Shown: in pieces, positions 17,203 to 61,842 of the stretch
How the letters are laid out: every line of letters starts with the position of its first letter
Position numbering within the stretch: position 1 is the first letter of the stretch
From: an uncultured Gammaproteobacteria bacterium
GTDB lineage: Bacteria; Pseudomonadota; Gammaproteobacteria; Pseudomonadales; Pseudohongiellaceae
DNA: 64,000 nt
Direction of reading: 5' to 3'
Assembly: GCA_913048385.1 (NCBI GenBank)
Contig: CAJWVZ010000003.1
Coordinates: 1-64,000 of the forward strand
Translations under genes and position numbers: made by a program
The notes under the pieces: generated by a model
Seen by the model: only the letters and a program-made list of their open reading frames with translations
The model's database searches: none
What the model was told of the DNA's origin: nothing

Positions 17203-17218
17203 TTATTCAAGTGTATAA
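17203..17218. promoter_or_regulatory. GntR-type operator, site A
   Basis: TTATTCAAGTGTATAA, 21 bases upstream of the copper/heme gene start (minus strand). It matches the consensus at 15 of 16 positions. Bound protein here would cover the promoter or the start of the transcript. Confidence 0.8.
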
Positions 17219-17407
17219 ATTATCGTTTTTGCATGACGAACACAAGGCCTTGTATTACTTATTCTTCGAATCGGGAAAAATTTTCGGCTGAGCGTTACTC
17301 GAAGCTGACAAGCTTTGAAATGTTTGCAAGGAAAAATATCTTCTCGATCCCAGCATGAGCGTATACAGACGCCTTATCGCCTTCAGTCAAGGTTACTTAA
17401 AGCACTG

Positions 17408-18358
17408 CTACGGAGAAACCGTAACCCTCTGGTAAACGTTGGTCCAACAACATTGATTGGTGTTAGAGCTGTCTGGTGCAGAGAAATTATCGACCTTCGC
17501 ATGGATGATATAGTCTCCGGGTTCGGAGAAGCTGGCATAGACGCGGGCAAGGCCTTGGCCGCCGGAGACAGAAACGGTATTCGGGCCTTTTTTGCCAGCA
17601 CTTAATGTGCAACCTTGACACAAAACCGACGGCTCTTTTGGTTTCTCTTCAGCCTTAGTGAGGTCGATATTTTCAGGATGCCGAGTGAATGTTACGGCAC
17701 CTTCGCCCTGAAACTTATTAAATGTTACACCCAAGGGCAGCGCTTCGGAAAATTGCAGATCATTGGGTTCGCGCTCCGATGTGTCTTTCACCCTGACTGT
17801 TAGTAGCACACCGGCCCCAACGGTCACGGAATTGGGGTAGTCGCGGACCGATGATAGCAATCCCGGTGAGATATCGGTGCTTTCGCCAAAGCCCGCAAGA
17901 GGCTGCATTGATCCCTGAGGGCGTGGAAGAATGAAATCGAGTTCGTAGCCAGCTCGTCCTATTCGGCCGGGAACCCTGAGTATTTCGCTGTCGCCAGATT
18001 GTATGTTCCACCAAACCTCAGTCTCCGCTTTATCTTCAGGAATTGTGACACTAAAAACTCCTGTGTGCCGACCTGCAGGGAAGTGCGTGGGTTGAATGCC
18101 ATCATACCCAAGCGGGTCTATGAAGTTGGCGTCCCCAAGTGGAATATCAACTGCTTCTTTGTTTCTATTGAGATAGCCAAATGAGAAGCTTTTTGAGCCA
18201 TCGGGGTTTGCAATCCATCCCTCCATTAGCGGGACGATTGCGAGTCCTGTGGCTGGTAATAGATTGAGAAACCTAGGCTGTTGCGCGTGACTCGTTGTGC
18301 TGATGAACGAGAGGAGTATAAGGCCCTGCAGGAACAGTGATTTCATGGGGTATCGCAT
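17408..18358 (-). CDS. Exported beta-sandwich partner protein of the copper/heme oxidase (copy 1)
   Basis: 316 residues from the ATG at 18358, chosen because GGAGAG lies seven bases upstream and a clean signal peptide follows (MKSLFLQGLILLSFISTTSHAQ). An in-frame ATG at 18436 would place the coding region next to the operator and lacks this ribosome site. The mature protein has FGYLNRNKEAVDIPLG, a GIQPTHFPAGRHTGVFSV block and an immunoglobulin-like end (FSEPGDYIIHAKVDN, then QCCWTN). I do not know a named family. A homologue beginning at 63250 shares the FGxxNRN, VDIPLG and QPTHFP motifs and again neighbours a copper/heme gene, so the two proteins probably work together in the periplasm. Confidence 0.65.
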   Translation of the reverse strand: MRYPMKSLFLQGLILLSFISTTSHAQQPRFLNLLPATGLAIVPLMEGWIANPDGSKSFSFGYLNRNKEAVDIPLGDANFIDPLGYDGIQPTHFPAGRHTGVFSVTIPEDKAETEVWWNIQSGDSEILRVPGRIGRAGYELDFILPRPQGSMQPLAGFGESTDISPGLLSSVRDYPNSVTVGAGVLLTVRVKDTSEREPNDLQFSEALPLGVTFNKFQGEGAVTFTRHPENIDLTKAEEKPKEPSVLCQGCTLSAGKKGPNTVSVSGGQGLARVYASFSEPGDYIIHAKVDNFSAPDSSNTNQCCWTNVYQRVTVSP

Positions 18359-18442
18359 CGTTTTGCTCTCCAATTTTTGTCGAGTCCGCCTAGCCAAACA
18401 ATGTAGGGGTTTGTACCGAAAGGTCGAGACATTCAAATAAAT

Positions 18443-18458
18443 TTATTCAATTGTATAA
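18443..18458. promoter_or_regulatory. GntR-type operator, site B
   Basis: TTATTCAATTGTATAA, the exact consensus, 84 bases upstream of the beta-sandwich gene start (minus strand). The rest of the 380-base gap up to the gntR stop shows nothing else convincing. Confidence 0.85.
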
Positions 18459-18737: not shown

Positions 18738-19430
18738 TCAAGCAAGTGATAGCCGAGATTTTCGAGCCTCCGAATAGTGTTTGGCCACCGCCTTCTCTGC
18801 CAAATCAGGGTCTCTTGATTCAATGGCTGTGATAATCTCGGAGTGCTCTTGAATCGCATCGTCGATACGAGCGGGGTTATCAAATGGTCTCCCTTTCAAT
18901 TGACCGATTCTTGTCCGCAATAGTTTTAGCGTCTGGGACAGGTAATTGTTATTACATGCGTCGTAGATAACCACATGAAATTGGTTGTCAATTTTGGCAA
19001 GCAGTTCTGGCTCGTTTCGTGCTGACTTAAAAAGAGATAGATTGGTTTTGAGCATTTCTATCTCTAAATCTGAGATATGTAGGGCGGTCGCGCGAACAGC
19101 TGTAATTTCCAGTTCATCACGAACATGGTAAAAATCTTCGGACTCTTCGGCTGTTAGCTGAGTGACGCAGACTGATCCACCCGGCAATTGTTCGAGCAAC
19201 CCTTCAGTCACTAACTGGCGTATCGATTCACGAATAGGCGTGCGACTCATGCCTAATTCTTTGGCGAGTGCAGCGAAGTCAATTTCTTGGCCAGGGTTTA
19301 TTTTCCCTGTCTGGATAGCGTCGCGGAAATAGGCTAACGCTCTATCAGTTAACGGCATGTTAACTTGCGCCGACGAATGCTTTGTTTTCAAAGATGCTTT
19401 CATGGGGACGGAGTGTAAAGAATCTTTCAT
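18738..19430 (-). CDS. GntR-family regulator, FadR/FCD subfamily (1)
   Basis: 230 residues. The winged helix lies at about 27-90 (FAALAKELGMSRTPIRESIRQLVTEGLLEQ is the GntR signature). An all-helical FCD domain follows (about 95-222) with the metal-site histidines in NQFHVVIY, QEHSEII and AKHYSEA. FCD regulators bind small organic acids and usually repress their operator. An exact copy of the 16-bp operator (site C) lies upstream, which suggests autorepression and control of the other 12 sites. The start is uncertain: the ATGs at 19430, 19403 and 19358 all lack a good ribosome site, and an intrinsic terminator sits just upstream. Confidence 0.9.
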   Translation of the reverse strand: MKDSLHSVPMKASLKTKHSSAQVNMPLTDRALAYFRDAIQTGKINPGQEIDFAALAKELGMSRTPIRESIRQLVTEGLLEQLPGGSVCVTQLTAEESEDFYHVRDELEITAVRATALHISDLEIEMLKTNLSLFKSARNEPELLAKIDNQFHVVIYDACNNNYLSQTLKLLRTRIGQLKGRPFDNPARIDDAIQEHSEIITAIESRDPDLAEKAVAKHYSEARKSRLSLA

Positions 19431-19599: not shown

Positions 19600-19615
19600 T
19601 TATACAATTGAATAA
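19600..19615. promoter_or_regulatory. GntR-type operator, site C
   Basis: TTATACAATTGAATAA, the exact consensus read on the minus strand. TTGACA lies 15 bases before TATAAA in the direction of gntR, so the operator occludes the -10 and most of the spacer. Confidence 0.85.
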
Positions 19616-21153: not shown

Positions 21154-22350
21154 TTAGGGGATTAATAACGGAACGAAACGGGTCATACCTTTAAAAACGC
21201 CGACGTCCCCGGCGTATATGTTGCCGTCTTTGTCAGCGGTGACGCCTTCTCCCATCGCACCAACGCCACCCATACCCGATGGCCGAACAGTGGAAACATG
21301 TTCCGGTATAAAATACAGAACTTCACCATTGCGAGCGTTGCCAACACGCAATCCCTTCCTCCATCCGCCTGGGTTGTAGTTTTCATCAGACTCCGAATCG
21401 ATGGCGTAGAGCATATCATTGCTTGGGTCTATGTGGATTCCTGAGATTCGGCTGAATTGGTACCAAGTATCAAGCCACTCACCATCTTGCGTGAAAATCT
21501 GAATACGGTTGTTGCCACGATCTGCAACGAAGAGACGACCCTTGGAATCCATTGCGAGGCCGTGGGGAGAGCGGAACTGGCCATCATCCCAGCCATATTC
21601 CCCGAAATGACCGATGTAAGTCCCATCGGGCGCCCACATAGTTATTCGACTCTTAGTCTCTGCGTTGGGTTCTTCTTGGAACTGAGCCCCGTGCGTTTCC
21701 GCGATGTATATACGGCCACTAGGTGCGATCAGAACGTCATTGGGCTCGGTAAGGTGTGTAGGTGGGTCACCTAGTTCTCCCGGTGTGCCGATCGTCATAA
21801 GAAGTTCGCCTTCGGGACTAAATTTTAAAATTGCACTACCCAACTGGGCCGCGATCGGGTTCTGTTTGATTTCATCTGCTCGGGCAGTGCGGGCATCTGC
21901 GATCCAAACGTTGCCTTCATGGTCCACGTCAATGCCGTGCGGCCACAGAATTTGGCCGGCACCGAATTGTTTTACAACACGTCCGTTCGGGTCGAGTTTT
22001 ACGATTGGGTTTATGTTGGGAGCGGTGGCACACTGATTGTTGCCGCAACGATCTCCAGCCCAAACATGGACTCCGTCAACGTCGATATCAACTGCACTGA
22101 CCGAGCCCCATCGACGTCCGTCTGGTAAGGAGCCAAAATTGCGCTGTGTGAGATAAGGGTTTGGTAAGTTGTTGATCGGTCGCTGACCCGAGTGCGCTGC
22201 AGGTTTTCCAGTCTCCGCCATCGACCCCTCAGTCTGAGCCATTGGATTTGATTGTGCCATGATGCCTGAAGACACCACGAGAGCTGTAAATCCGAACAAA
22301 TTATTTCTTGTGATATTCTTTAGCCAAATAATAAAGTCACCCATTGTCAT
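21154..22350 (-). CDS. Exported NHL-repeat beta-propeller, peptidyl-alpha-hydroxyglycine lyase (PAL)-like
   Basis: 398 residues. AAAGGAGGAAAC precedes the ATG at 22350, and an N-terminal hydrophobic segment (about 18-34) serves as signal peptide. The mature chain has NHL repeats, clearest in SPHGLAMDSKGRLFVADRGNNRIQIF (21-residue blocks with D-x-G-N-R) and WPHGIDVDHEGNVWIADA. Bacterial proteins of this type are often annotated as alpha-amidating lyase. The lyase follows a PHM-type copper hydroxylase in peptide amidation, and PHM-like genes lie on both sides here. Activity is an inference; a plain scaffolding propeller is equally possible. The divergent gene and operator D lie upstream. Confidence 0.65.
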   Translation of the reverse strand: MTMGDFIIWLKNITRNNLFGFTALVVSSGIMAQSNPMAQTEGSMAETGKPAAHSGQRPINNLPNPYLTQRNFGSLPDGRRWGSVSAVDIDVDGVHVWAGDRCGNNQCATAPNINPIVKLDPNGRVVKQFGAGQILWPHGIDVDHEGNVWIADARTARADEIKQNPIAAQLGSAILKFSPEGELLMTIGTPGELGDPPTHLTEPNDVLIAPSGRIYIAETHGAQFQEEPNAETKSRITMWAPDGTYIGHFGEYGWDDGQFRSPHGLAMDSKGRLFVADRGNNRIQIFTQDGEWLDTWYQFSRISGIHIDPSNDMLYAIDSESDENYNPGGWRKGLRVGNARNGEVLYFIPEHVSTVRPSGMGGVGAMGEGVTADKDGNIYAGDVGVFKGMTRFVPLLIP

Positions 22351-22493: not shown

Positions 22494-22509
22494 TTATACA
22501 ATTGAATAA
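22494..22509. promoter_or_regulatory. GntR-type operator, site D
   Basis: TTATACAATTGAATAA, the exact consensus in reverse orientation. It lies between the divergent NHL-repeat gene and the DGxPD gene, 71 bases before the ATG at 22581, and may control both. Confidence 0.85.
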
Positions 22510-22580
22510 AATTTGGCCTCCGCTGAAGATTGAATCCACGCATTAGCCTTCAGAGCGGTTGCCGGATAAGAGACAACGCC

Positions 22581-23603
22581 ATGAAAATGTTTATGAACTC
22601 GAAGTCACTATGTATTATTTGTCTGCATACGCTCATCACGGTTGGAACCGCTTGTGCTCAGTCTTCTTATCAGGCTCCGCTAACTATCGATGGCCATCCT
22701 GACATCCAGGGGGTTTGGGCAAACAATACAGTGACCCCAGTGCAACGTCCTGATGTGTTTGAGGGTCGGGAATTTCTTACTGCTGAAGAAATGCAAATTA
22801 TTTCGACGAGAGCTAATGAAATTACTGCCGATACCGATGACGCGCTGTTCGGTGAATCAGTGATTACATCAGCATTGACGGGCAACGTTAAATCTAATGA
22901 TCCATCAACGGGTAATTATGATCAGTTTTGGTTGGCAGATCGAAGTATACATAATCGGACTTCCCAGATCATTGACCCTCCTAATGGCAAATACCCTGCG
23001 CTTACCGAGGAAGGCATAGCTCGGCGAGAACGGATGGGACAGTTGAGGAATAATTCGGCCGCAGCAGGTGAACGCTTTGAGACGTTAGATTCATACGAAA
23101 CTTTAAGTCAGGATGACCGGTGTATTACTAACGGTGCACCTTACTTAGATTCTGGCTACAACAGTTATTGGCAGATAGTGCAGTCGAAGGATTACGTTGT
23201 AATCGTTCAAGAGATGATTCACGACGCTCGTATCATTCCGATTAAGAGTATGCCAATTCTTTCCGATGAGATCGAACTGCTCCATGGTGATTCTCGCGGG
23301 TACTGGGACGGCGACACCCTTGTAGTAGAAACGCGTAATTTCTCAAACAGGAGCGAGCTTAGTCACAATCGAGCTGAGTTGAACGTTGAGCGTTTCACCC
23401 GCATCGGAGAGACGGAATTGCGCTACCAAATTACTTCGAATGACCCGGGTACCTATTCGGCAACTTATACGCGAGAAATTATTTTCGATTATTCTGATGG
23501 TGACATATATGAATTTGCCTGCCACGAGGGAAATTATGCGTTACCAAACATGTTACGAGGTGCGCGTGAGGAAGAGCGTCGAGCAAGAGCGAGTTTCAAT
23601 TAG
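22581..23603 (+). CDS. Exported DGxPD-GxW family protein of unknown function (1)
   Basis: 340 residues from the ATG at 22581, chosen because it gives a compact signal peptide (KSLCIICLHTLITVGTACAQ). A longer in-frame start at 22530 would be only 20 bases from the operator. Motifs are TIDGHPDIQGVWANNTVTP after the cleavage site, IVQEMIHDARIIPI, the block GDSRGYWDGDTLVVETRNFS and ERFTRIGETELRYQITSNDP. The protein at 30519 has the same order of motifs (DGNPDFGGIW, GHSRGYFEGDSLVIDVTD, ERYTHIG). I know this as a conserved secreted family without assigned function. It is first in a probable three-gene operon with a PHM-like protein and a flavin enzyme, under operator D. Confidence 0.65.
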   Translation: MKMFMNSKSLCIICLHTLITVGTACAQSSYQAPLTIDGHPDIQGVWANNTVTPVQRPDVFEGREFLTAEEMQIISTRANEITADTDDALFGESVITSALTGNVKSNDPSTGNYDQFWLADRSIHNRTSQIIDPPNGKYPALTEEGIARRERMGQLRNNSAAAGERFETLDSYETLSQDDRCITNGAPYLDSGYNSYWQIVQSKDYVVIVQEMIHDARIIPIKSMPILSDEIELLHGDSRGYWDGDTLVVETRNFSNRSELSHNRAELNVERFTRIGETELRYQITSNDPGTYSATYTREIIFDYSDGDIYEFACHEGNYALPNMLRGAREEERRARASFN

Positions 23604-23647
23604 TGCTTGCTCTTGTCTGATCAGATGGTGAGAGGTGCGAACTCATT

Positions 23648-24874
23648 TTGTTAGACTCTAAGGCCCGCAATTTTTTATTTATCTACCTGTTTCTTTCGTG
23701 GAGTTGCTTAGGTTTTTCTGACACCCGGATAACGGCAGGTCCGCATATTGGGTATACTTATGACGACGCCTTGGTGGGGGAAAAGCAGGGTAGTTCGCCC
23801 GGTGATCCCTCTTCGAAACGGGGCTGGGAATTAGGTAGTCCCGACCTTATCGTGAAACTGGCGACACCATATTCCATTCCAAAGGGCGACTCTGACGTCT
23901 TTCGTAATTTCGTGATTCCAAATGTCACTGCGTCAGATCGTTATGTTCGCGGGCTTGAGTTCAAGCTTGATGATTACAGACTTGTTCACCATGCTGAGTT
24001 TCGGGTTGATGAGACTGAGGTTTCGTTGCAACGCGATGATGCGGATCCAGTGACCGGCTACGCTGGGATGAGTAATGTTACTGCACAGTATCCTGACGGA
24101 CATTTTATAAATTGGGTGCCAGGAAAGCGGGCATCTTATTTACCTAATGATCTTGCTTGGCGGCTTCCAGCGGGCGCAGATCTCGTGGTTCAGCTGCACA
24201 TGATGCCGACTGACTCTGAGGGAATGGTCGATCCGGAAATTGCGCTCTACTTCGCTGATAACCCCCCTGAACTGAGACCTCGGATGCTTTGGTTGGGCTC
24301 GCGTTGGCTGCCAATTAGTGCTGGAGAAACGCGGTTCTCGGTTCGTGATAGTTTTAAATTACCTATCGACGTTGAGGTGCTGAGCGTTCTTCCGCATTGT
24401 CATTTCATATGCAAGACGGTTGAAGCGTGGGCTATTCAGCCGGATGGCAGCCAAATGTGGCTTGCGAGAGTTGAGGAATGGGATTTTTACAGTCAGCAGG
24501 AAACGCGTTTCATACAACCGCTCAGACTGCCGCGCGGCACAAATATATTGGTGGAGTTTGGTTATGATAATTCCATAGAGAACGAACGTAATCCAAATTT
24601 TCCCCCTGTAGACATTAAATTTGGCCCTCTTTCTTCCAACGAAATGGCAGACTTTTGGATTCAAGTCTTGACTCAGAATGAAGATGCGGGCGAGAGAATT
24701 AGTCAATCCTCCGCGATCCACTTGCAAAAAAGAATAATTGAACATCAGGAGCGGCAAGTTGAACTTATGCCTGATGTCAATGGCTACATCGAGTTGGCGC
24801 GCAGCCACAGGATCCTCAATGAGCTTAATAGGACTGCGAGGTTGGAAAGTAGTGCTAGTCAAGAATCCCGTTGA
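23648..24874 (+). CDS. Exported copper type II (PHM-like) monooxygenase-like protein without heme
   Basis: 408 residues; the start is TTG at 23648 with GAGAGGTG upstream, giving a signal peptide that ends near GFSDT. No CxxCH is present. The PHM-like copper ligands can be traced: LVHHAEFR (His pair), VVQLHMMP, LPHCHFICKTVEAW (H-x-H) and SSNEMADFWIQV (Met). Relatives usually read PHAHYLGK at the third site; here a Cys lies between the two His and the Gly is Ile-Cys. It is expected in the periplasm as a copper hydroxylase or electron-transfer partner with an unknown substrate. The gene lies 44 bases after the DGxPD gene and 36 before the flavin enzyme. Confidence 0.7.
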   Translation: MLDSKARNFLFIYLFLSWSCLGFSDTRITAGPHIGYTYDDALVGEKQGSSPGDPSSKRGWELGSPDLIVKLATPYSIPKGDSDVFRNFVIPNVTASDRYVRGLEFKLDDYRLVHHAEFRVDETEVSLQRDDADPVTGYAGMSNVTAQYPDGHFINWVPGKRASYLPNDLAWRLPAGADLVVQLHMMPTDSEGMVDPEIALYFADNPPELRPRMLWLGSRWLPISAGETRFSVRDSFKLPIDVEVLSVLPHCHFICKTVEAWAIQPDGSQMWLARVEEWDFYSQQETRFIQPLRLPRGTNILVEFGYDNSIENERNPNFPPVDIKFGPLSSNEMADFWIQVLTQNEDAGERISQSSAIHLQKRIIEHQERQVELMPDVNGYIELARSHRILNELNRTARLESSASQESR

Positions 24875-24910
24875 AGCTGTAAATTTTTAAAAAATTTTGT
24901 AGGAAAACAT

Positions 24911-26950
24911 ATGATGGCAGATGTCCTTTTTGAATCATTTAAAATCAAAGAAACTACGTTTAAAAATCGTATTTTTTCTGCGGCACATGAACCTGCCTTC
25001 ACCGAAGAGGGGATGACGGCAAGACGATACATCGCATATCACGAGGAAAAGGCTAGGGGAGGGATGGCGATGTCCATGATCGGAGCCTCGACAGTCGTCA
25101 GCCGTGACTCCCCCGCAACATTCGGAAATGTGGATGCCTCAACCGACCGAATTATAGAATGGTGGGGTAAGCTCGCTGCGACTATGTCTGTTTATGACTG
25201 TAAGGTAATTACTCAGCTCACTCATCTCGGCCGACGAACGAGTTGGGCAGACCCAGATTGGTTACCCCTCATGTCGGCATCATGTGTTCGTGAACAGGCG
25301 CACAAGCAATATCCTAAAGCGGTAGAGATTGAGGATATTAATCGAATTAAAGCTGAGTATGTTGCGGCAGCTATTCGTGCCGAACAGGCAGGACTTGATG
25401 GGATTGAGTTAATGGCGTACGTGCAGTTTGCCGGCTCGTTTCTGATATCAGATCAGAATTTTCGCAACGATCAGTATGGTGGTCAGAGCATCGAAAACCG
25501 GATGCGTTTTAGCTTAGAAGTCCTCGAAGAAATCCGCGCGGCCGTTAGTAATGATTTTATCGTTGGGATTCGGACAACCGGCGGTGATCCTGACGGAATG
25601 AGTGAGGAAGAAGCGCTCGACATCAATTTACGTTACGCCGATAGTGAGATGACTGACTATCTCAATATCGTTTACGGCTCAGTGATGGGAAGTGAGGTAG
25701 GCGTTAGTAGGTCGGTTCCACCAATGGGTACTCCTGCCTCTCCGCACACAGAAAAGCTTAAAAATATTCGCAGCCAAATAAGTGTGCCAGTGATTCATTC
25801 ATGTCGGATAATGGATCTCAGTTCAGCAAGGAACGCGCTCGAGATTGGGGCGATGGACATGGTGGGAATGACCCGTGCACACATGGCCGACCCTCATATA
25901 CTCACTAAATTTTCGGCTGGTGAGGAACATAGAATTCGGCCTTGCGTCGGAGCCGGACACTGCATCGATCAGATTTACCATTCGGGCGCTGCCTACTGTA
26001 TTCATAATCCGTCGACCGGGCGTGAGCAGACAATCCCTCAGCTTGTTGAAAAAAGTGTTGGCGCTCCAAAGAGTATAGTCGTCATCGGCGCTGGTCCTGC
26101 TGGGATGGAGGCTGCTCGGGTTTCAAGGCTGCGAGGACATGATGTGAGGATTTTTGAAGCCAGCTCAGCTGCGGGTGGTCAGCTGTTACTTGCGTCTCGA
26201 GCACCACGCAGAGGCGACCTGATTGGTATCGTTGATTGGCTCAAAGGTGAGCTTGAGCATAGCGGTGTGCCGATCGAGTATGACCGTTATATTGAGGCTG
26301 ATGATTTAGCGGGTATAGGAGCTGACATTATTGTAGTGGCAACGGGAGGTCTGCCAAATACAGAGTTTTTTGAGTCCGGTCACGAGTTGTGTATCTCAAG
26401 CTGGGATGTTTTGAGTGGACAAGCCAAGCTTGATGGTGACGTTTTGCTTTACGATGAGAACGGCGCCGAAGCGGGCGTAGGAACTGCAGAGTTCTTGATA
26501 GACCAAGGAAAAAAAATTCATATGGTGACGCCCGATAGACTCATAGGCACTCATATTGGACCCACAAATTATCCGCCAGCGATGGAAAAGTTTTACAACG
26601 CTCAAATGGAAATGACGACAGATCATAGATTAGTCTCATTGCGGCGCGAGGATAGAAAGGTAGTCGCCCGGTTATGGTGTGATCTCAGTGGTTCTGCTTT
26701 GGAAAAAATTGTTGATCATGTGGTGGTTGAAAATGGAACCCTGCCAGCCGACGGTGTTTATTTTGGCTTAAAAAAAGATTCCGTTAATTCAGGTGTGACA
26801 GATATCAACGCGCTGGCGGATCTTGAGATTCAATCCGTTACTCTCAATACAAAAGGGAGGTATCAGCTCTTCCGAATCGGTGACGCTGTCGCCAGTCGCA
26901 GTGTGCATGCGGCTATGTTTGAGGCTAGGCGATTGTGCATGATGTTTTAG
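24911..26950 (+). CDS. FMN/Fe-S/FAD oxidoreductase, N-methylproline demethylase (StcD)/dienoyl-CoA reductase type
   Basis: 679 residues. An OYE-type TIM barrel (about 1-340; FKNRIFSAAHEP, YHEEKARGG, THLGRR, NDQYGGQSIENRMRF) is followed by an iron-sulfur segment with Cys345, Cys351 and Cys363 and a FAD/NAD Rossmann domain from about 391 (VVIGAGPAGMEAARV). The N-terminal pattern resembles N-methylproline (stachydrine) demethylases, which release formaldehyde. The usual first-cluster spacing C-x2-C-x3-C lacks its second Cys, and the pocket motif typically HGH is YVQF here. I infer reductive or oxidative attack on a small N-methylated or enone substrate in the cytoplasm. It is last in the operator D operon. 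Confidence 0.75.
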   Translation: MMADVLFESFKIKETTFKNRIFSAAHEPAFTEEGMTARRYIAYHEEKARGGMAMSMIGASTVVSRDSPATFGNVDASTDRIIEWWGKLAATMSVYDCKVITQLTHLGRRTSWADPDWLPLMSASCVREQAHKQYPKAVEIEDINRIKAEYVAAAIRAEQAGLDGIELMAYVQFAGSFLISDQNFRNDQYGGQSIENRMRFSLEVLEEIRAAVSNDFIVGIRTTGGDPDGMSEEEALDINLRYADSEMTDYLNIVYGSVMGSEVGVSRSVPPMGTPASPHTEKLKNIRSQISVPVIHSCRIMDLSSARNALEIGAMDMVGMTRAHMADPHILTKFSAGEEHRIRPCVGAGHCIDQIYHSGAAYCIHNPSTGREQTIPQLVEKSVGAPKSIVVIGAGPAGMEAARVSRLRGHDVRIFEASSAAGGQLLLASRAPRRGDLIGIVDWLKGELEHSGVPIEYDRYIEADDLAGIGADIIVVATGGLPNTEFFESGHELCISSWDVLSGQAKLDGDVLLYDENGAEAGVGTAEFLIDQGKKIHMVTPDRLIGTHIGPTNYPPAMEKFYNAQMEMTTDHRLVSLRREDRKVVARLWCDLSGSALEKIVDHVVVENGTLPADGVYFGLKKDSVNSGVTDINALADLEIQSVTLNTKGRYQLFRIGDAVASRSVHAAMFEARRLCMMF

Positions 26951-31440: not shown

Positions 31441-32751
31441 TTATTTATTACGATCAGCTATGGCGTCTTGTATACCATAAATACTAATCATGGCTGCAGC
31501 TCCCAGCGGGGAAAACGGGTGAAAAGGCACCTTTCGAATCTTTTTTTCCACCGGTAATATCAAATCCTCTTTTTCAGAATCTCCGTGGCAGAAACTGAGT
31601 TCTCGCCCAAGTAAAGTAGACAATGCAATGCCGCGACCATTGTATCCTTGAGCTGCCCATACTCCGTCGGCTAGGCGTATTATTCTTGGGAACTGATCGA
31701 CACTTATTGCGATCCATCCGCTCCAACTCTCACCCCATTTGATGGACCCAATGGCTGGATATACATCTTTGAGGCGTTGACGAGCGACTTTTAAATCCGC
31801 TTTGCCCTTGGCGCCCATGGTAGGTCCGCCGACCCCAAGATGTAATTGCCCGCTGGGAAGTTTTCTAATGCCGGACCAGAGTTGCCGTGTATCAGTAATA
31901 AAGTGATTTTGAGGAAGGATGTTTTTTAACTGGGCGGGATCAACAGCGGCTGTTGTTGCTCCGAAGCCTCTAACTGGTATAAAGCCTTTTTCAAGCCCCG
32001 GCCAAACGCCTTTTGTGTAAGCATTCGTGCAAAAGTAAACATTCTCGCACTCAACGCTGCCTTGCGGTGTGGTGACGCGCCAGCTTCCGGTTTGGGTTTG
32101 TTGTACATCGACAGCGGGAGTATTGATGTATTGTTTGGCCCCTAGTCGGTGAGCGTTTTCGAATAAGCCTCGAGCATAACTGTAGGGACTTACTGATAAC
32201 GCTCGTCTATCAATGAGGCCGCCACGGTAGTAATCACTGCCAATGACTTCGCTAAATTCACTAGCGCCGAGATATTGGACGTCTGCACCTCGTGCTTGCC
32301 AGTATTCGGCTCGTTTTTGAAGCTTTTTATAAAATGGCTTCGAGTGGGCACCAAAAGCCCATCCGCCCCCAGGAAACGCCGCGTCAATATCGTAACGATC
32401 TAGCAGTTCTGAAACGAGGGCGGGACCGTGGGCAAGAGCATCAATGAGACGAGTACCGCGTCGTTTTCCGTAGTGGCGAATGATAGCCTCTTCGCTGTTT
32501 TTATGGCAGGGAACAACTGAACCGAATGCTCGGCCAGACCCCCCCCAACCAGGTACCTTGGCTTCAAGTTGAACTACCGATCTTCCTGCTTCAGAAAGGT
32601 GTAGGGCTAGGGTATTGCCTGTAATTCCTGAACCAATTACCACTGCATCAGAGTGCGTGTGGCTCGTTAAACTTTCCCTCTCGAGCTTGCTCGCATCCGA
32701 AGGTCGATAGCATGCTGGGATACTATAAGGCTCATAAGGAAGATGTGACAT
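31441..32751 (-). CDS. FAD-dependent DAO-family oxidoreductase (PuuB/sarcosine-oxidase-like)
   Basis: 436 residues. The N-terminal FAD site is AVVIGSGITGNTLALHLSEAG with the acidic end LEAK, and GWGGSGRAFGSVVP follows, as in gamma-glutamylputrescine oxidase-like proteins. The C-terminal GVWAAQGYNGRGIALSTLLG is the second flavin motif. The family oxidises primary or secondary amines (sarcosine, glycine, glutamylputrescine) with release of H2O2 and either aldehyde or ammonia. The substrate is not deducible; an N-methyl amino acid would release formaldehyde for the FrmA route. Two operator copies lie 54-87 bases upstream of the ATG, so it is likely repressed by the GntR proteins. Confidence 0.83.
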   Translation of the reverse strand: MSHLPYEPYSIPACYRPSDASKLERESLTSHTHSDAVVIGSGITGNTLALHLSEAGRSVVQLEAKVPGWGGSGRAFGSVVPCHKNSEEAIIRHYGKRRGTRLIDALAHGPALVSELLDRYDIDAAFPGGGWAFGAHSKPFYKKLQKRAEYWQARGADVQYLGASEFSEVIGSDYYRGGLIDRRALSVSPYSYARGLFENAHRLGAKQYINTPAVDVQQTQTGSWRVTTPQGSVECENVYFCTNAYTKGVWPGLEKGFIPVRGFGATTAAVDPAQLKNILPQNHFITDTRQLWSGIRKLPSGQLHLGVGGPTMGAKGKADLKVARQRLKDVYPAIGSIKWGESWSGWIAISVDQFPRIIRLADGVWAAQGYNGRGIALSTLLGRELSFCHGDSEKEDLILPVEKKIRKVPFHPFSPLGAAAMISIYGIQDAIADRNK

Positions 32752-32804: not shown

Positions 32805-32820
32805 TTATTCAAATGTATAA
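32805..32820. promoter_or_regulatory. GntR-type operator, site E
   Basis: TTATTCAAATGTATAA. It is paired with site F 18 bp away centre to centre, in the 352-base gap between the DAO gene and divergent gntR 2. The remainder of that gap shows nothing clear. Confidence 0.8.
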
Positions 32821-32822: not shown

Positions 32823-32838
32823 TTATTCATATGTATAA
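32823..32838. promoter_or_regulatory. GntR-type operator, site F
   Basis: TTATTCATATGTATAA, a tandem partner of site E in the same orientation, separated by two bases. The close pair suggests cooperative binding over the DAO promoter and possibly effects on gntR 2 about 265 bases away. Confidence 0.8.
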
Positions 32839-35251: not shown

Positions 35252-35398
35252 GTGTGCTCCTTGTTGGTAAGTAGTTTATGGTCCAGAGCTGCTCAATTCT
35301 TGAACAGGGCAGAGATCGAAATTACAAATTGATCTTTTTTCAGCGGGAAATTAGTCAAGTAATCAACGGGTTGCAGGATCTGATGCGTGAGGCACAGT

Positions 35399-35414
35399 TT
35401 ATTCAATCGTATAA
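35399..35414. promoter_or_regulatory. GntR-type operator, site G
   Basis: TTATTCAATCGTATAA, 15 of 16 consensus positions. It is 30 bp from site H centre to centre, about three helical turns, in the gap between the aldehyde dehydrogenase and the hyuB gene. Confidence 0.78.
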
Positions 35415-35428
35415 GTTCTTGACTACAA

Positions 35429-35444
35429 TTATGCAAATGTATAA
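35429..35444. promoter_or_regulatory. GntR-type operator, site H, over a promoter
   Basis: TTATGCAAATGTATAA. TTGACT lies 15 bases before TATAAA, so the site covers the spacer and -10 of the probable hyu-operon promoter, 106 bases before the hyuB start. Confidence 0.8.
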
Positions 35445-35550
35445 ATTACCGCCTATGTTTCGTAATTACAAGTATCTTATGTCCCTTCATTCACACGGCG
35501 ACGTGGTATCTCCGCATTAGTTCGATACAGTAGTAAAAGGTAGCAACCAA

Positions 35551-37218: not shown

Positions 37219-37258
37219 AGATCAAAATAATGGAACGAACGAATTAAAAAGGTTTTAA

Positions 37259-39358: not shown

Positions 39359-39367
39359 GAATAAACC

Positions 39368-40981: not shown

Positions 40982-40993
40982 GGAGTAATAATT

Positions 40994-41794: not shown

Positions 41795-41799
41795 ATCCG

Positions 41800-51499: not shown

Positions 51500-51500
51500 A

Positions 51501-55595: not shown

Positions 55596-55611
55596 TTATT
55601 CAATTGTATAA
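55596..55611. promoter_or_regulatory. GntR-type operator, site I, over a promoter
   Basis: TTATTCAATTGTATAA, the exact consensus. TTGACG lies 15 bases before TATAAA, so the site covers the spacer and -10 of a promoter reading toward the aldolase gene 253 bases downstream. The rest of the 440-base gap between the PQQ gene and the aldolase contains the folded element at 55679-55765. Confidence 0.85.
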
Positions 55612-55864: not shown

Positions 55865-56719
55865 ATGAAAGAAGATACTTATGAGAGATTCTCAGGACGA
55901 GGGATTCTTTGGATGTTGAGTGCATTAATTGTCTTCAGCATACTGCTGCCACCGTTTGCTTCAGCGCAAACTGCATCGAACGGCCGGTTTAACAAAATTA
56001 TTGAACGCTTTGAGCAAGGTCAGGCGGCTCTTGTCGGCGACCATTGGCAGCTCAATGACCTTGAGCATAACCCTTTTCAGGTTGACGAGTTCGAAGCATT
56101 CTTAAATGAAATCGAGGCTGACGATGCCTCGAGGCCACGTCTGACTCCCGTTGTACGAATCCCTTACGAGGCCCATCAGGATTACCACCATTATGTGAAA
56201 CAGATGCTAGATGCTGGCGCTATGGGTATCGTGTTGCCACAGGTGAAGACTGTTGCTGACGTAACGAGGCTTGTGCGGGCGATGCGGTACCCACCGCAAC
56301 GGGGCACCGATAACAACGAACCAAAAGGTCTGCGTGGATGGGGACCGAGCGCGGCCATTCGCGTCTGGAACACAGATAGTAAAACTTATGCGAGTAGAGC
56401 GGATGTGTGGCCTCTCAATCCTGAAGGTGAACTTTTGGCTATAGCGATGGTTGAGACCCGAGAAATTGTGGAAAACATTGACGCGATTTTGCAAGTGCCG
56501 GGTCTTGGCGGTTTGCTTATTGGTCCGGCTGACCTTAGCTTGGCACTTGGCGTTGGAAATCCTGGGCCGAACACCAATGCGCCCGAGGTGTTAGACGCGA
56601 TTGAGAAGGTTGGAATCGCCTGTAAACGTCACAATGCGCTGTGCGGTATCTATATGCGGTCGGATGTTGAGTCGCGAATGGAGGAAGGGTTTATGCTCTT
56701 CCCGTCCATAGCATATTAA
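55865..56719 (+). CDS. Exported HpcH/HpaI-family aldolase-like protein, C-terminus shortened by an in-frame stop
   Basis: 284 residues. A signal peptide ends near ASAQTAS (about residue 35). The rest matches HpcH/HpaI class II aldolases: LEHNPF (His68), VVRIPYEAH (Arg98), VLPQVKT (Gln126), MVETREIVENI (Glu197) and GPADLSLALG (Asp223), the last two being metal ligands. Members split or join hydroxy-oxo acids and are normally cytoplasmic, so export is odd. The TAA at 56717 is followed in the same frame by 17 codons (AGGIAANMVRANFAIKK) and a TGA at 56771. That tail looks like the missing last helix of the fold. Operator I governs the gene. Confidence 0.72.
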   Translation: MKEDTYERFSGRGILWMLSALIVFSILLPPFASAQTASNGRFNKIIERFEQGQAALVGDHWQLNDLEHNPFQVDEFEAFLNEIEADDASRPRLTPVVRIPYEAHQDYHHYVKQMLDAGAMGIVLPQVKTVADVTRLVRAMRYPPQRGTDNNEPKGLRGWGPSAAIRVWNTDSKTYASRADVWPLNPEGELLAIAMVETREIVENIDAILQVPGLGGLLIGPADLSLALGVGNPGPNTNAPEVLDAIEKVGIACKRHNALCGIYMRSDVESRMEEGFMLFPSIAY

Positions 56720-56802
56720 GCGGGTGGTATTGCAGCAAATATGGTTCGCGCAAACTTTGCGATCAAGAAATGAACAAGACACTTAGTATCAGGAGTGGAA
56801 AA

Positions 56803-58557
56803 TTGAACAAAAGAAGATTAAACCAGTTGGCTTTGCAAACGCTTATCGGAGCGCTTACCTTAAACTTCGTGGCATGCAGTCCTGAGCCTCCAACGGAGCA
56901 AGCTTCGCGATCTGATATGGCAGCGCAGCCTGATGTTTCCATGAAGGCATCGTCTGAGCCTTACGCTTTGACAGGTACTGTAAGCTCCTCGGAGGAGGGG
57001 TTAATGGAGGGGGTCGTAGTTAGCGCAAAGAGAAATGGCTCGACGATTACAGTCTCGGTGGTCAGCGATTTAGACGGAAGGTACAGGTTTCCCGAAGATA
57101 GATTAGAACCAGGTATCTACAACATCAGTATACGGGCAGTTGGATATGACCTGGATGACCCGGGGCCTGTGGAGCTGACTGAGAGTCTGGTTCAAGTGGA
57201 TTTGCATTTGACTGAAACGCTCGATTTGTCTCAACAACTTACGAACACAGAGTGGATGATTAGCGCTCCAGGCAGTTTTGCTGAGAAACAATACCTAGAC
57301 GACTGTACTATGTGCCATACCTTGCAAAAGCCCTTAATATCGTCTTTTGACGCAGACGCGATGACATCGGTTGTGCAGCGGATGAGTGCGCACACGCTGA
57401 ACTCTACCGTTGAGCATCCTCATTTCAAGACAGCCACTCCTGAAATGCTTAGTCAGCCTCCATCGGCTGAACAGATAGATAAAGGTAGGTATATCAGCAG
57501 CATAAATTTGAGTGGGGCTGATACATGGGAGTTCCCTTTGCAGACTTTGCCCCGACCAACAGGCAAGGCGACTCAGGTGATATTCACCACATATGAATTG
57601 CCACGTTCAGATGCTGCTCCGCATGATGCTGTGCTGGGGCCTGATGGGTACATTTGGTATAACGATTTTGTAACCCCCTACATGGGTAAGCTTGATCCGA
57701 AGACAGGGGAAACATTTGAGTTTGATATTCCGATTCAAAAGCCGGGGTATGCGGTGGGTAGTCATGCCCTTGATGTGGGTGACGACGGGATGATTTACGC
57801 AGCCGCAATGCATCAGGCGATGGTAGTTAAGATTGATCCCGCGACGAATGAGATGAGGACTATACTTTTTCCACACTGGGACGTTGACGGCGCTACAAAT
57901 GATGCAAGGTTAACGGTGCTCGATCCGGGTGCTCAGTCAGTGGATGGGCACATTTGGGTTAATGGCTACAAAGGTGGCGAGATGGGGGTGGCATATCAGG
58001 TAGATTTTGAAGCAAACGAATGGACGCCCGTTATTCATCCAGCAGGCAGTCCACCTCATAACGCTTACGATGTTATGGCTGACTCAAAGAATAATATGTA
58101 CGGCATAAATATGGATAAAGAGCATGTCTGGAAGACTGACGCTAAAACTTTGAAGACCACTTTCTATAAGATACCGACGCCAGGAGCCGGGGGACGGCGA
58201 GGCAATGTGGATGCCAAAGATCGGCTCTGGTGGGCTCAGTATAGAGGCAATGGGATCGGTATGTTTGACCCGGTAACGGAACAAATAACCGAATGGAAGA
58301 TGCCGACGCCCTGGACGAGCCCTTATGATGCAGAGTTCGATGAGGAATCTTACGTCTGGACGGGAGGAATGAATAATGACCTTGCAATAAGGTTGAATGT
58401 GGAGACCGGAGAATTCACAGAATATCTGCTGCCTTTTGAGACTAATATTCGTAACGTTGATGTGCAAATGTCAGACAACCCACACAAACTCTCGAGTTTT
58501 TGGGTGGGCGGTCAGTTGAATGGCCTCATCACGCACGTTGAGCCCCTGGTGCCGTGA
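56803..58557 (+). CDS. Lipoprotein with carboxypeptidase-regulatory-like, heme c and streptogramin-lyase-like propeller (2)
   Basis: The TTG start at 56803 has AGGAG seven bases upstream, giving 584 residues; an ATG at 56770, overlapping the read-through stop of the aldolase frame, is the alternative. The lipobox LNFVAC (Cys25) marks a lipoprotein. A regulatory-like sandwich follows (TGTVSSSEEGLMEGVVVSAK, about residues 57-140), then heme c CTMCH at about 168-172, and a Vgb-like propeller (GPDGYIWYNDFVTPYMGKLDPKTG and GVAYQVDFEANEWTPV are typical blades). It resembles the protein at 44333. The gene follows the aldolase closely, so operator I should control both. Its role is unknown. Confidence 0.7.
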   Translation: MNKRRLNQLALQTLIGALTLNFVACSPEPPTEQASRSDMAAQPDVSMKASSEPYALTGTVSSSEEGLMEGVVVSAKRNGSTITVSVVSDLDGRYRFPEDRLEPGIYNISIRAVGYDLDDPGPVELTESLVQVDLHLTETLDLSQQLTNTEWMISAPGSFAEKQYLDDCTMCHTLQKPLISSFDADAMTSVVQRMSAHTLNSTVEHPHFKTATPEMLSQPPSAEQIDKGRYISSINLSGADTWEFPLQTLPRPTGKATQVIFTTYELPRSDAAPHDAVLGPDGYIWYNDFVTPYMGKLDPKTGETFEFDIPIQKPGYAVGSHALDVGDDGMIYAAAMHQAMVVKIDPATNEMRTILFPHWDVDGATNDARLTVLDPGAQSVDGHIWVNGYKGGEMGVAYQVDFEANEWTPVIHPAGSPPHNAYDVMADSKNNMYGINMDKEHVWKTDAKTLKTTFYKIPTPGAGGRRGNVDAKDRLWWAQYRGNGIGMFDPVTEQITEWKMPTPWTSPYDAEFDEESYVWTGGMNNDLAIRLNVETGEFTEYLLPFETNIRNVDVQMSDNPHKLSSFWVGGQLNGLITHVEPLVP

Positions 58558-58726: not shown

Positions 58727-58742
58727 TTATACAAGTGAATAA
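58727..58742. promoter_or_regulatory. GntR-type operator, site J
   Basis: TTATACAAGTGAATAA, in reverse orientation to K and L. It is the first of three sites in the 328-base gap before the TonB receptor gene; centre spacing J-K is 43 bp and K-L 33 bp. Confidence 0.78.
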
Positions 58743-58769: not shown

Positions 58770-58785
58770 TTATTCGATTGTATAA
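58770..58785. promoter_or_regulatory. GntR-type operator, site K, over a promoter
   Basis: TTATTCGATTGTATAA. TTGACG lies 15 bases before TATAAA, the same arrangement as at sites C, H and I, reading toward the TonB receptor gene. Confidence 0.82.
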
Positions 58786-58802: not shown

Positions 58803-58818
58803 TTATTCGATTGTATAA
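58803..58818. promoter_or_regulatory. GntR-type operator, site L
   Basis: TTATTCGATTGTATAA, identical to site K and 33 bp downstream of it, 67 bases before the receptor start. A second bound dimer here could form a loop or block elongation. Confidence 0.82.
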
Positions 58819-58885: not shown

Positions 58886-61525
58886 ATGTTTAAACAAAAT
58901 AAAATTAATAGGATCTTAGCGCCTGCAATAGCACTGGCGTTATTCGCTCCTGCGGGTTTTGTGCCAATGGCGATGGCGCAGGAAAGCGTAGATCAAATCG
59001 AACAAGTTATTGTTACGGGTTCGAGAGGTCGACCGCGAACCGTAGCGGATTCGCCAGTGCCTATCGATGTTTTCAGTGCTGATGACATTGGCCAGATTTC
59101 ATTAACGGATACTAACGATATCCTGCAAACGTTAGTGCCTTCCTTTAACGTTTCTAAAACAAACTTTTCTGGTGGAGCTTACATTCGTCCGGCGACGTTG
59201 CGTGGCCTGCAGAGCGATAAGACCCTTGTTTTGGTCAACTCGAAGCGTCGTCATCGCTCGGCCTTAGTGGACTTAGATGGTGCAGGTGCTCAAGCCGCAG
59301 ATTTGGCAACTATCCCATCAGTGGCGATTCAGAATATAGAAGTCTTACGAGACGGCGCAGCGGCTCAGTACGGTTCTGATGCCATCGCAGGCGTTATCAA
59401 CTTTATACTGAAAGAGAATCGAGAAGGTGGCGCAATTACCGTAGATATTGGTGAGTATGGTGAGGGTGATGGTCAGTCGGTCAATGTTCAGGGCAATATG
59501 GGATTTGCATTGGGCGATAATGGGTTCTTGAGCATCTCGGGTGAGTATACGGACGTAGAGCGGACTATACGGGCGGAAGAATATTGCCAGTCGTGGTGGT
59601 GTGCGGATCGCAATAACCCAACGTACGCAGCATTTAATGGCAGGAATAATTCATCATCGGCTTACGAACAGACTCCAGTATTTAGAACAGCCTATGAAAG
59701 CGGACATCCAACATACATCGATTCTGGTCGTTATTCGCAACCCTGGGGTCAGCCAGCCTCCGAGTCCTTTCGGTTATTTTTTAACTCAGGGATCGAAGTC
59801 AGCGATAACAGTGAGATTTATGCTTTTGGTAACTGGTCTTCAAGCGATTCGAATGCCAACTTTTTCCATCGTCGCCCAGTGATCGGTCTTTTTAAGGAGT
59901 CGCGTTTGGCCGATGGTTCTACATACAGCCCGCGTGATTTATTCCCTGCAGGTTTCACTCCTCAACTATTCGGCAGCGTTGATGATCAGTCAGTCGTTGC
60001 TGGCTGGAGAGGTGAATGGGCAAATGGCCTGACCTATGACTTTAGTTACCGTACAGGTGAGAGTGAAATAGAGTATAACTTGTTCAATACACTAAACGCC
60101 TCTATGGGTGTGGAGTCTCCTACTAATTTTCATTTAGGTAACTTGGTCAATGAAGAGACGCAGATTCAGGCAGACTTCACCTATGAATATGATTCTGGTG
60201 CCGTGCTCGCGTTTGGGTATAGCTTTGTAGACGAGGAGTACAACATTCTCGGTGGAGAGCCAAGCTCTCACGCGCCGGGAACATACGGAGTTGCAGATCC
60301 TCATGGGTTTTGTGACGGTGATAACGCCACCGCTGCTGGAGCGGCAGTAATTGCAAATGGCTCCACTCTAAATTGCGCGGATAGCTCGGATCCTGTTTAT
60401 TACGTTGGACAAGTCGGTGCCAATGGAATGCCCGGGTTCCCACCTGAGTTTTCAAAAAACTACGGACGGGAGGCTACGTCTCTCTACGCCGATCTTAGCC
60501 AAGATGTGACCGACAACTTGTTCGTGCAGGGTGCTGTGCGTGCTGAAGACTATAATGATTTTGGCTCGGAACTAACGTGGAAACTGGCAGCTATTTTGGA
60601 TGTGACTGACAACCTAGCCATTCGCGGCTCGTTGGGTACCTCCTTGAGGGCGCCAAGCCCAGGACAACAGGGTACCACTAATATATCGGTGCGTTTGCCA
60701 AATGGAGTTCCACAGCTTCGTGGCTTATTCCCGGCTGACTCGGCGGTCGCGAGGTCTATGGGCGCACAGCCACTTAAGCCGGAAACCGCGGATAATATTA
60801 CCCTCGGTTTTACCGCAGACATAGGTGATTTAAGCCTTGCAGTGGATTTTTATAGCATCGCAATCGCAGACCGTGTCTATATTAACGAAGAAGCGAATTC
60901 AGTGTCTTCAGATCCAGGTGCGGGTGCAGCATATGGCAGGTATCAGGCTCTGGTGGCAGCAGGGGTCGCTGATGCGGAACAGTATGGTCAGGTAAATTAT
61001 TTCGCTAACGCTTTTGATACTACCACCGAAGGGGTTGACGTTGTCGCGACAGCACCTCTCGACTGGGGTAGTAATGGTGTCACGAATCTGAGTCTTGCTT
61101 TGAACTACACGAAGAATGACTTTGATAGCCCAGTAAGCCAGGTTAGCAGCCAATTATCAGCTGAGGAGCAGGCCGATTTTAGACACCTTGTCCCTAAATT
61201 GCGGAGCGTGTTTACAGCGCGTCATGAGCTAGACCGCTTAGCTGTAATTGGAAGACTCAGTTACTACGGGGATTATGAAAAAGCTACTACTGGAGGGGTG
61301 TTGTTTCAGGAGTTCGGTGGCGTTCTGTATACTGACCTAGAGATGCAGTATCAACTGAACGATACTGTTCGGCTATCAGGTGGAGCACGGAACTTGTTTG
61401 ATGAATACCCTGATGTGGGGCGAACTGAAACCAGCTATGTTTGTTGCGGAAATCTATATGGATTTCAGAACAACCTGGATTGGCAAGGTCGATATTTCTA
61501 TGCTCGGGCCTCTATGAGTTTCTAG
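58886..61525 (+). CDS. TonB-dependent receptor
   Basis: 879 residues. The signal peptide ends at about 31 (PMAMAQE). A TonB-box-like segment IEQVIVTGSRGRPRTVADSP follows, then the plug (VPIDVFSADDI, RPATLRGLQSDKTLVLVN, IQNIEVLRDGAAAQYGSDAIAGVINFIL) and a long 22-strand-type barrel ending in SMSF. The plug is the common one for carbohydrate or small-organic receptors, but the ligand is unknown. With three operator copies in front, it is the most strongly marked target of the regulon and the likely route of substrate entry. An intrinsic terminator follows the stop. Confidence 0.92.
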   Translation: MFKQNKINRILAPAIALALFAPAGFVPMAMAQESVDQIEQVIVTGSRGRPRTVADSPVPIDVFSADDIGQISLTDTNDILQTLVPSFNVSKTNFSGGAYIRPATLRGLQSDKTLVLVNSKRRHRSALVDLDGAGAQAADLATIPSVAIQNIEVLRDGAAAQYGSDAIAGVINFILKENREGGAITVDIGEYGEGDGQSVNVQGNMGFALGDNGFLSISGEYTDVERTIRAEEYCQSWWCADRNNPTYAAFNGRNNSSSAYEQTPVFRTAYESGHPTYIDSGRYSQPWGQPASESFRLFFNSGIEVSDNSEIYAFGNWSSSDSNANFFHRRPVIGLFKESRLADGSTYSPRDLFPAGFTPQLFGSVDDQSVVAGWRGEWANGLTYDFSYRTGESEIEYNLFNTLNASMGVESPTNFHLGNLVNEETQIQADFTYEYDSGAVLAFGYSFVDEEYNILGGEPSSHAPGTYGVADPHGFCDGDNATAAGAAVIANGSTLNCADSSDPVYYVGQVGANGMPGFPPEFSKNYGREATSLYADLSQDVTDNLFVQGAVRAEDYNDFGSELTWKLAAILDVTDNLAIRGSLGTSLRAPSPGQQGTTNISVRLPNGVPQLRGLFPADSAVARSMGAQPLKPETADNITLGFTADIGDLSLAVDFYSIAIADRVYINEEANSVSSDPGAGAAYGRYQALVAAGVADAEQYGQVNYFANAFDTTTEGVDVVATAPLDWGSNGVTNLSLALNYTKNDFDSPVSQVSSQLSAEEQADFRHLVPKLRSVFTARHELDRLAVIGRLSYYGDYEKATTGGVLFQEFGGVLYTDLEMQYQLNDTVRLSGGARNLFDEYPDVGRTETSYVCCGNLYGFQNNLDWQGRYFYARASMSF

Positions 61526-61557
61526 AATATGGTTTGAAATGTATTAGGATTGAAATT

Positions 61558-61593
61558 AAAAGGGAACCTTCAGTGATGGTTCCCTTTTTTTTT
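61558..61593 (+). terminator. Intrinsic terminator of the TonB receptor gene
   Basis: AAAAGGGAACC pairs perfectly with GGTTCCCTTTT around a 9-base loop and runs into a T-tract, 33 bases after the receptor stop. This is a textbook Rho-independent terminator; with its A-rich start it may also act on the other strand. Confidence 0.9.
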
Positions 61594-61826
61594 CTTCAGC
61601 TTGAGTCTAGCGATGGAACATCTTGGTTGTTGATTAGAAAACATTTTTTGATTTTTAAATAACAGTCGTGAGCAAGGGTTAAACTCAGTAGGATGCTTGT
61701 GTGGCTGCATGAAGGAAATAAACTCGCTCGGGCTTGCGACACCAAGATTTTCCTACCATCGGTCATGCGCTTAAGATGACAAATTAGTAGTGGAATCGCT
61801 TGAAACACAGTGGTCGAAGTAGTATT

Positions 61827-61842
61827 TTATACATATGAATAA
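61827..61842. promoter_or_regulatory. GntR-type operator, site M
   Basis: TTATACATATGAATAA in reverse orientation, 71 bases before the second copper/heme gene start, the same distance as site D has to its gene. The rest of the 388-base gap holds the receptor terminator and nothing else recognised. Confidence 0.82.

Follow-up and report, generated by a model that had tools for sequence, protein, structure and literature searches.

What reads a sequence that stands before gene after gene in one part of a chromosome, and do its copies mark one regulon? The question is raised by a stretch of 64,000 nucleotides (the window) from an uncultured gammaproteobacterium of the family Pseudohongiellaceae (contig CAJWVZ010000003.1, positions 1 to 64,000), in which an island of 47 kilobases carries 13 copies of a 16-bp operator, TTATTCAATTGTATAA. 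An initial annotation had proposed that these copies define one GntR/FCD regulon for the uptake and oxidative breakdown of one compound class. The 13 operators do mark a single local regulon, which is strongly supported because they keep within the island, recur in other species at the same genes and track these genes through rearrangement.

The oriented 16-bp site was used as the query. With up to three mismatches the window contains exactly 13 places (24 strand-matches), all of them at the coordinates in the initial annotation, whereas dinucleotide shuffles of the window gave a mean of 0.93 matches and a maximum of 4 at the same threshold. A scan of the window's own genome (2,520,082 bases, 37 contigs) with up to two mismatches returned 17 strand-matches, all at these 13 places; the reversed pattern, used as a control, had no match in this genome. 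At this threshold there is no 14th place in the 2.52 Mb and the sites are not scattered. None of the 13 operators overlaps any of the 51 open reading frames (ORFs) of at least 120 amino acids in the window, in line with the claim that they occur only between genes, and the intergenic share of positions 15835-63257 that holds all 13 amounts to 9.9% (30 genes used). The constant asymmetry between the half-sites is also as first described: TTATTC on one side (TTATGC once, in the site at 35429) and TTATAC on the other. The count of nine marked transcripts holds for the intergenic regions, nine of which contain operators, but three of these are divergent and therefore up to about 12 promoters are marked. 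The divergent regions separate the genes of an NHL-repeat protein and the protein u357 (NHL/u357), a DAO-family FAD oxidoreductase and GntR2 (DAO/gntR2), and an aldehyde dehydrogenase and HyuB (ALDH/hyuB). Literature searches for the 16-mer operator and related strings found no paper.

The distribution of the operator was followed in the 84 genomes of the genus (G000 is the window's genome). With up to one mismatch, 13 of the 84 genomes match the operator compared with two that match the reversed pattern. At least three strand-matches occur in eight genomes (G065 17, G000 10, G460 9, G013 8, G029 7, G028 6, G080 6 and G036 3). A search for orthologs of GntR1, covering 67 of the 84 genomes (the other 17 are operator-free at up to one mismatch), identified close orthologs in eight genomes, which are the same eight that have at least three operators (E <= 4.6e-93); the closest copy outside G000 is 64-93% identical to the window GntR1. 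GntR2 orthologs are present in seven of the eight operator-rich genomes, and the exception, G080, is uninformative because a 3018-base contig ends between the DAO gene and the expected gntR2 start. Five further genomes have one or two matches (G449, G464, G445, G458 and G196); the match in G445 lies inside an ORF and that in G458 among apparent respiratory complex genes, as judged by eye. Tandem duplicates of GntR1 occur in G013, G029, G080 and G460 (L141 3217-4852, L087 14769-16388, L091 12321-13924, L114 and L115). A spread of the island beyond the genus was considered and rejected: among 390 genomes sampled from the order GntR2 (E <= 1e-40) was found in two, the window's own and another of the genus, and the thiamine pyrophosphate (TPP) enzyme of the island (E <= 1e-160) was found in one of 369 genomes sampled from the class and one of 398 from the phylum, the own genome in each case. 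A contig search reaching close relatives only returned the metagenome-assembled genome (MAG) MED855, from the same genus, and two distant matches.

Proteins of the window were mapped onto 43 stretches fetched from relatives and the upstream regions were scanned with up to three mismatches, excluding ortholog matches below 60% identity and regions cut by contig ends. The operators precede orthologous genes in other species. An operator is present in every upstream region of DAO (8/8), u342, GntR2, HyuB and the TonB-dependent receptor TBDT (7/7 each) and NHL and ALDH (6/6 each), and in most of those of u357 (7/8), GntR1 (12/14), the cytochrome-like cytA (7/9) and HpcH (5/6). The ratios are 6/10 for cytB (including split matches) and 5/8 for u742 (a gene absent from the window), and they are low for Vgb (3/11), u285 (2/7) and Glyox (1/6). 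No operator was found upstream of BlaH, PEPCK, MFS, HyuA, TPP, DUF1552 and ANK (0/7 each), u408, SDR, IlvE, PSD and PQQ (0/6 each), AraC (0/4) or OYE (0/2), and the reversed pattern had zero matches in all mapped upstream regions. Of the 14 GntR1 copies, the one in G036 and one in G080, close to the end of its contig, lack an upstream operator. The island of G065 is spread over three contigs with operators on each, and in G464 one long contig holds the u742/PSD part and another the TonB part, both with operators; the association is therefore with the genes and not with one DNA stretch.

The architecture of the operator was examined in a set of 92 sites from seven genomes (G449, G464 and G460 are not included), which omits contigs G036:C60, C22, C29 and G065:C10, sites inside ortholog matches and sites near contig edges. 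Counting positions from 0, T is found at position 4 in 83 sites and at position 11 in 91, and A at position 15 in 91. The symmetric core TTATNCNNNNGNATAA was used for a neutral scan of the fetched contigs (569 kb, omitting G036:C60, C22, C29, G065:C10 and the contigs of G458 and G445); 72 exact cores were intergenic and one was inside a doubtful ORF of 135 amino acids. The asymmetric form predominates (70 of the 72 intergenic cores: 66 T/A and 4 G/A, with 2 symmetric A/A sites). Cores with one mismatch added 45 sites, among them 33 T/A and 9 A/A. Promoter direction was rejected as the cause of the asymmetry: of the 27 sites whose only genes run the opposite way 26 have T at position 4, as do 57 of the 65 others. 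The operator is thus oriented, independent of gene direction.

Some of the 92 sites take up one of two fixed registers relative to predicted promoters. In the first, a TTG[AC][CA] box on the oriented strand starts exactly 10 bases before the site in 26 sites (the next commonest forward offset is found in 4) and 25 of these 26 have a gene downstream in the box direction. With a 17-base spacer the -10 element would start at site position 13, and the site would cover the spacer and the -10. The second register was seen in 12 sites: the box lies on the opposite strand, starting 27 bases ahead of the site, and in 11 of the 12 a gene (DAO, cytB or u342) follows in the box direction. With the same spacer the -10 would lie at the site edge, and its end and the start region would be covered by the site. 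The neighbouring operator of a tandem pair accounts for a smaller peak at -22 (5 sites). Altogether, by this simple test 38 of the 92 sites are in one of the two registers and 54 in neither; the overlap of the 38 with predicted promoters is what repression would lead one to expect.

Adjacent operators are 30-33 bases apart at hyuB and at the TonB receptor gene and, once in the window, 43 bases. The 30-base pair at hyuB is also present in G013, G028, G029 and G460, and an 18-base pair at gntR2 is found in G000 and G028 only. Outside the window, seven of eight TonB-receptor promoters have a third operator 169-172 bases upstream of the middle one (in six species: G013, G029, G080 twice, G449, G464 and G460). 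All seven distal operators have A at position 4 and belong to the cores with one mismatch. The receptor promoter has a single operator in G065 and a different triple in the window. The distal operator suggests looping.

The candidates for the binder are the two regulators encoded among the marked genes, GntR1 (18738..19430, - strand; Pfam GntR 1.4e-12, FCD 3.5e-26) and GntR2 (33104..33793, + strand; Pfam GntR 2.6e-17, FCD 2.2e-25), both of which score above the cut-off of both Pfam models and are FCD-type regulators as first annotated. The SRTPIRE recognition helix is invariant in 10 GntR1 and 6 GntR2 aligned sequences, and its Arg is the counterpart of Arg45, the residue with which the FCD repressor Atu1419 reads the G of its operator, matched by motif and not by structure alignment. 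The residues of the metal/carboxylate site are likewise invariant (D148, H152, H196 and H218 in GntR1; N135, H139, H183 and H205 in GntR2). Among fold matches to the predicted GntR2 structure Atu1419/VanR is first by E-value, PmiR and AlkR were also matched, and AlkR has the highest TM-score (0.78) among the 50 matches listed. The weaker GntR1 model matches PmiR and Atu1419; it is an AlphaFold model of middling quality (pLDDT 72, residues 82-91 below 50) and no conclusion is built on it. In these fold matches GntR1 and GntR2 are 22-26% identical to Atu1419. The AraC regulator encoded in the window was rejected as the binder, a close ortholog (>=74%) being present in only five of ten operator genomes and not found in G065 (97% complete), G036, G080, G464 and G449. 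Because GntR1 co-occurs with the operator, both gntR genes are preceded by operators and AraC is excluded, an FCD-type GntR protein, at least one of GntR1 and GntR2, likely binds the operator.

We consider it fairly probable that the island is one catabolic regulon repressed by its own FCD GntR protein. GntR1, GntR2 or both would bind the 16-bp oriented operator, and the bound repressor would cover the spacer and the -10, or the -10 end and the start region, and block RNA polymerase. An effector, probably a small carboxylate of the pathway, would release the repressor. Both gntR genes carry operators and are therefore probably autoregulated, and binding may be cooperative or looped at the pairs 30-33 bases apart and, in relatives, at the distal TonB-receptor operator.

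Four points weigh against this reading, and they leave the part of the initial annotation that concerns the binder less secure than the regulon. First, the operator has the form AC-N4-GT (with G:C pairs that read C-AATT-G), off the FadR-subfamily consensus GT-N2/3-AC, which PMC4494728 gives as GTM-N0-1-KAC; the right half of the operator, TTGTA, forms a proper TKGTM box that is turned outward. Second, the 112 kb of intergenic DNA from the fetched contigs, a set that includes a few contigs outside the island, shows no enrichment of canonical palindromes: TNGTNNNACNA was found 28 times compared with a mean of 31 in mononucleotide shuffles and TNGTNNACNA 19 times compared with 30. The two FCD proteins would therefore share one non-canonical motif. 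Third, no GntR1 or GntR2 was found in G464 (87% complete) and G449 (90% complete), which at up to two mismatches have five and four operators, respectively, located at the TonB receptor gene and at further genes of the island; contig C11 of G464 begins within the neighbouring symporter gene, so missing contigs may explain the absent gntR. Fourth, 54 of the 92 sites are in neither promoter register.

A special case of repression by an island GntR, quite possible though not the version we would put first, is that only one FCD protein, most likely GntR1, binds the operator and GntR2 reads another, unrecognised site. The two proteins are about 32% identical and differ in the winged helix region, where the helix before the recognition helix has Asp and Phe/Tyr in GntR1 and Arg/Lys and Glu in GntR2, and G080 retains GntR1 copies although GntR2 was not found there. 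Against this, no second motif was enriched among those tested, and the G080 contig ends at the expected gntR2 start.

The main rival to GntR binding is a regulator of another family (e.g., MarR, LysR, TetR or IclR) encoded outside the island, with the gntR genes as mere members of the regulon. It would account for an AC-N4-GT palindrome unlike canonical FCD sites and for the operators of G464 and G449, and operators before the gntR genes fit those genes as well as any other target. We nevertheless regard an outside binder as somewhat unlikely, since at least three operators (up to one mismatch) occur only together with a GntR1 ortholog (8/8 genomes), and GntR1 and GntR2 are the only persistent island regulators recognised (ORFs by eye, Pfam for a selection), the AraC protein being as patchy as described above.

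Whichever protein binds, it could be an activator or a dual regulator instead of a plain repressor, as the 54 sites outside both registers would allow. This is unlikely, given that a protein bound at the 38 operators that overlap a predicted promoter in either register should exclude polymerase and that the closely studied relative Atu1419 is described as a repressor (PMC7797058).

A further proposal concerns the asymmetry of the site: a GntR1-GntR2 heterodimer in which one subunit reads GTATAA and the other GAATAA, with a homodimer on the symmetric distal TonB-receptor site and a mixed tetramer that loops the receptor promoter. Room for it is left by the co-occurrence of two FCD paralogs with a single motif whose orientation does not depend on gene direction, and we think it quite unlikely; in the parts of the literature covered, a search for heterodimeric GntR pairs gave nothing useful. 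Such a heterodimer, if real, would make a two-component FCD repressor whose half-sites face outward. Finally, that the repeats have no regulatory role, being a mobile repeat, boxes of the DnaA type or simply -10 elements, is highly improbable, for although TTATTCA is similar to half a DnaA box and GTATAAA to a -10 element, the sites hold orthologous positions, are confined to upstream regions, survive rearrangement of the island and number 72 exact intergenic cores compared with one in the doubtful ORF, and the reversed control gave 0 matches.

BioR, which acts on biotin genes, provides a precedent for the outer boxes of the island operator. According to PMC4494728, BioR and NanR are exceptions to the GT...AC consensus of the FadR subfamily, and the BioR site (TTATMKATAA) shares the outer TTAT...ATAA boxes, as a precedent within the subfamily outside the GT...AC rule; unlike the island operator, it is 10 bp long and its boxes are separated by 2 bases, not 8. 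The FadR-subfamily palindromes described there consist of TKGT/ACMA boxes with GT and AC 3 or 2 bases apart, whereas the island boxes face outward. As in the FadR-subfamily regulons (Suvorova et al. 2015, PMC4494728), single and double sites occur in divergent intergenic regions.

The hydroxycinnamate regulon of Agrobacterium fabrum is another of the closest known systems. Its regulator Atu1419 (VanR group) is described as an FCD repressor that forms a tetramer and loops sites 190 bp apart; its operators lie over the -10 or the spacer (PMC7797058). In both systems the regulator gene lies within the catabolic cluster under control (Atu1419 represses its own gene), and the Asn and three His of the Atu1419 metal site (PMC7797058) compare with Asn/Asp and three His in GntR2/GntR1. 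The Atu1419 operator ATGTATACAT (GT-N2-AC), however, is symmetric and present in three identical copies (PMC7797058), whereas the island operator is AC-N4-GT, oriented and present in 13 copies over nine regions.

Along the island, operator 1 (TTATTCAAGTGTATAA, 17203..17218, + strand) lies 22 bases before cytA (15835..17181, -), which encodes a protein with a weak cytochrome c match below the Pfam cut-off and, by eye, a signal-peptide-like N-terminus; an operator upstream of cytA is also found in G013, G028, G029, G080, G460 and one G065 copy. Operators 2 (18443..18458, +), 3 (19600..19615, -), 4 (22494..22509, -) and 9 (55596..55611, +) are exact consensus. Operator 2 precedes u342 (17408..18436, -; no Pfam match) by 7 bases, a distance that is probably too short because the u342 start codon is uncertain (TTG, with a later signal-peptide-like ATG). 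Operator 3 overlaps the predicted gntR1 promoter, with TTGACA starting 10 bases before the site. Operator 4 lies between the divergent NHL-repeat gene (21154..22350, -) and a group consisting of u357, u408 (no Pfam match) and an FMN oxidoreductase of the OYE type (22530..26950, +). Operators 5 (32805..32820, +) and 6 (32823..32838, +), 18 bases apart, lie between the DAO-family oxidoreductase gene (31441..32751, -) and gntR2, and operator 6 is in the second register towards DAO. The ALDH gene (33809..35251, -) is separated by operators 7 (35399..35414, +) and 8 (35429..35444, +) from a probable operon of hyuB, hyuA, the TPP enzyme, a short-chain dehydrogenase/reductase (SDR) and an ilvE-type aminotransferase (35551..42720, +); operator 7 is 30 bases upstream of operator 8, which overlaps the predicted hyuB promoter with TTGACT starting 10 bases before the site. 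Operator 9, with TTGACG at the same distance, precedes genes for an HpcH/HpaI-like aldolase and a Vgb-lyase/carboxypeptidase-regulatory-like protein (55865..58557, +). Upstream of the TonB receptor gene (58886..61525, +) are operator 10 (58727..58742, -), operator 11 (58770..58785, +; in the promoter region, with TTGACG starting 10 bases before the site) and, 33 bases downstream of the latter, operator 12 (58803..58818, +). Operator 13 (61827..61842, -), in the second register, precedes cytB (61887..63257, +), which again has a weak cytochrome c match below the Pfam cut-off.

This gene content fits the proposal of one compound class as the target of the regulon; our guess is a nitrogen-containing substrate degraded via a 2-oxo acid and an aldehyde. 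Genes near operators in G065 and G029, not all of them directly downstream, include those for a dicarboxylate symporter, a solute-binding protein, a sorbosone-dehydrogenase-like cytochrome and a ferredoxin-type reductase, as would fit uptake and oxidation. The module of ALDH and hyuB-hyuA-TPP-SDR-ilvE (window 33809-42720) recurs on plasmids of Shinella and Antarctobacter (L147, L148) with 65-72% identity for the hyuB-hyuA-TPP-SDR-ilvE block and 58% for ALDH, and the TPP enzyme is 66-69% identical in three alphaproteobacterial plasmid records. The plasmid modules are neighboured by genes for an ornithine cyclodeaminase, FAD oxidoreductases (barely like the window DAO, with a 46-residue match to the Shinella one) and a different FCD regulator. 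The module thus stands beside an FCD regulator in both settings, although the plasmid regulator is only 25-29% identical to GntR1/2; candidate repeats on the plasmids, identified by eye, contain GTATAC right after a TTGACA box. Literature searches for the gene cluster found no paper. In G460 the TPP enzyme appears as two overlapping frames (L145 2617-4225), which reflects a frameshift or an assembly error.

Other parts of the window and of the relatives' islands have features of their own. An operator-free group at 1265-7802 encodes a PLP decarboxylase, a TonB receptor, an LCM methyltransferase, a saccharopine-dehydrogenase-like protein and a TetR regulator. At 47712-53117 a DUF1592-type PSD protein, a DUF1552 protein and an ankyrin-repeat protein remain neighbours in relatives, and the DUF1552 protein is 89-98% identical between the relatives and the window, which is unusually high for the island. 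The relatives' islands contain diverged paralogs of the cytochrome-like, u342, u357, NHL and PQQ-type families, often in the same order (e.g., L090 and L099), and the window members of these families are at 15835-17181, 17408-18436, 21154-22350, 22530-23603, 53388-55424 and 61887-63257; this recurrence suggests block duplication. The island is flanked by S49 peptidase and esterase genes in the window and in G028 (L105), by suf-type genes in G013 (L087), by alaS/lysC-type genes in G029 (L091; the names suf, alaS and lysC were assigned by eye) and in G065 (L096) by genes for a DUF3631 protein and a CHC2 zinc finger below threshold, which may belong to a mobile element. The chromosomal surroundings differ among G000, G013, G028, G029 and G065; the island has probably moved horizontally as a unit.

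The regulon is solid, and its operator is unusual and oriented. It belongs to a large island that is patchily distributed across a gammaproteobacterial genus, with the named MAG MED855 as one relative. The exact operator offers a way to find all genes of the island, among them the many whose products match no Pfam family, and in time its substrate. Binding by an FCD protein would make the operator a rare departure from the GT...AC rule of the family and a fixed, oriented site common to two paralogs.

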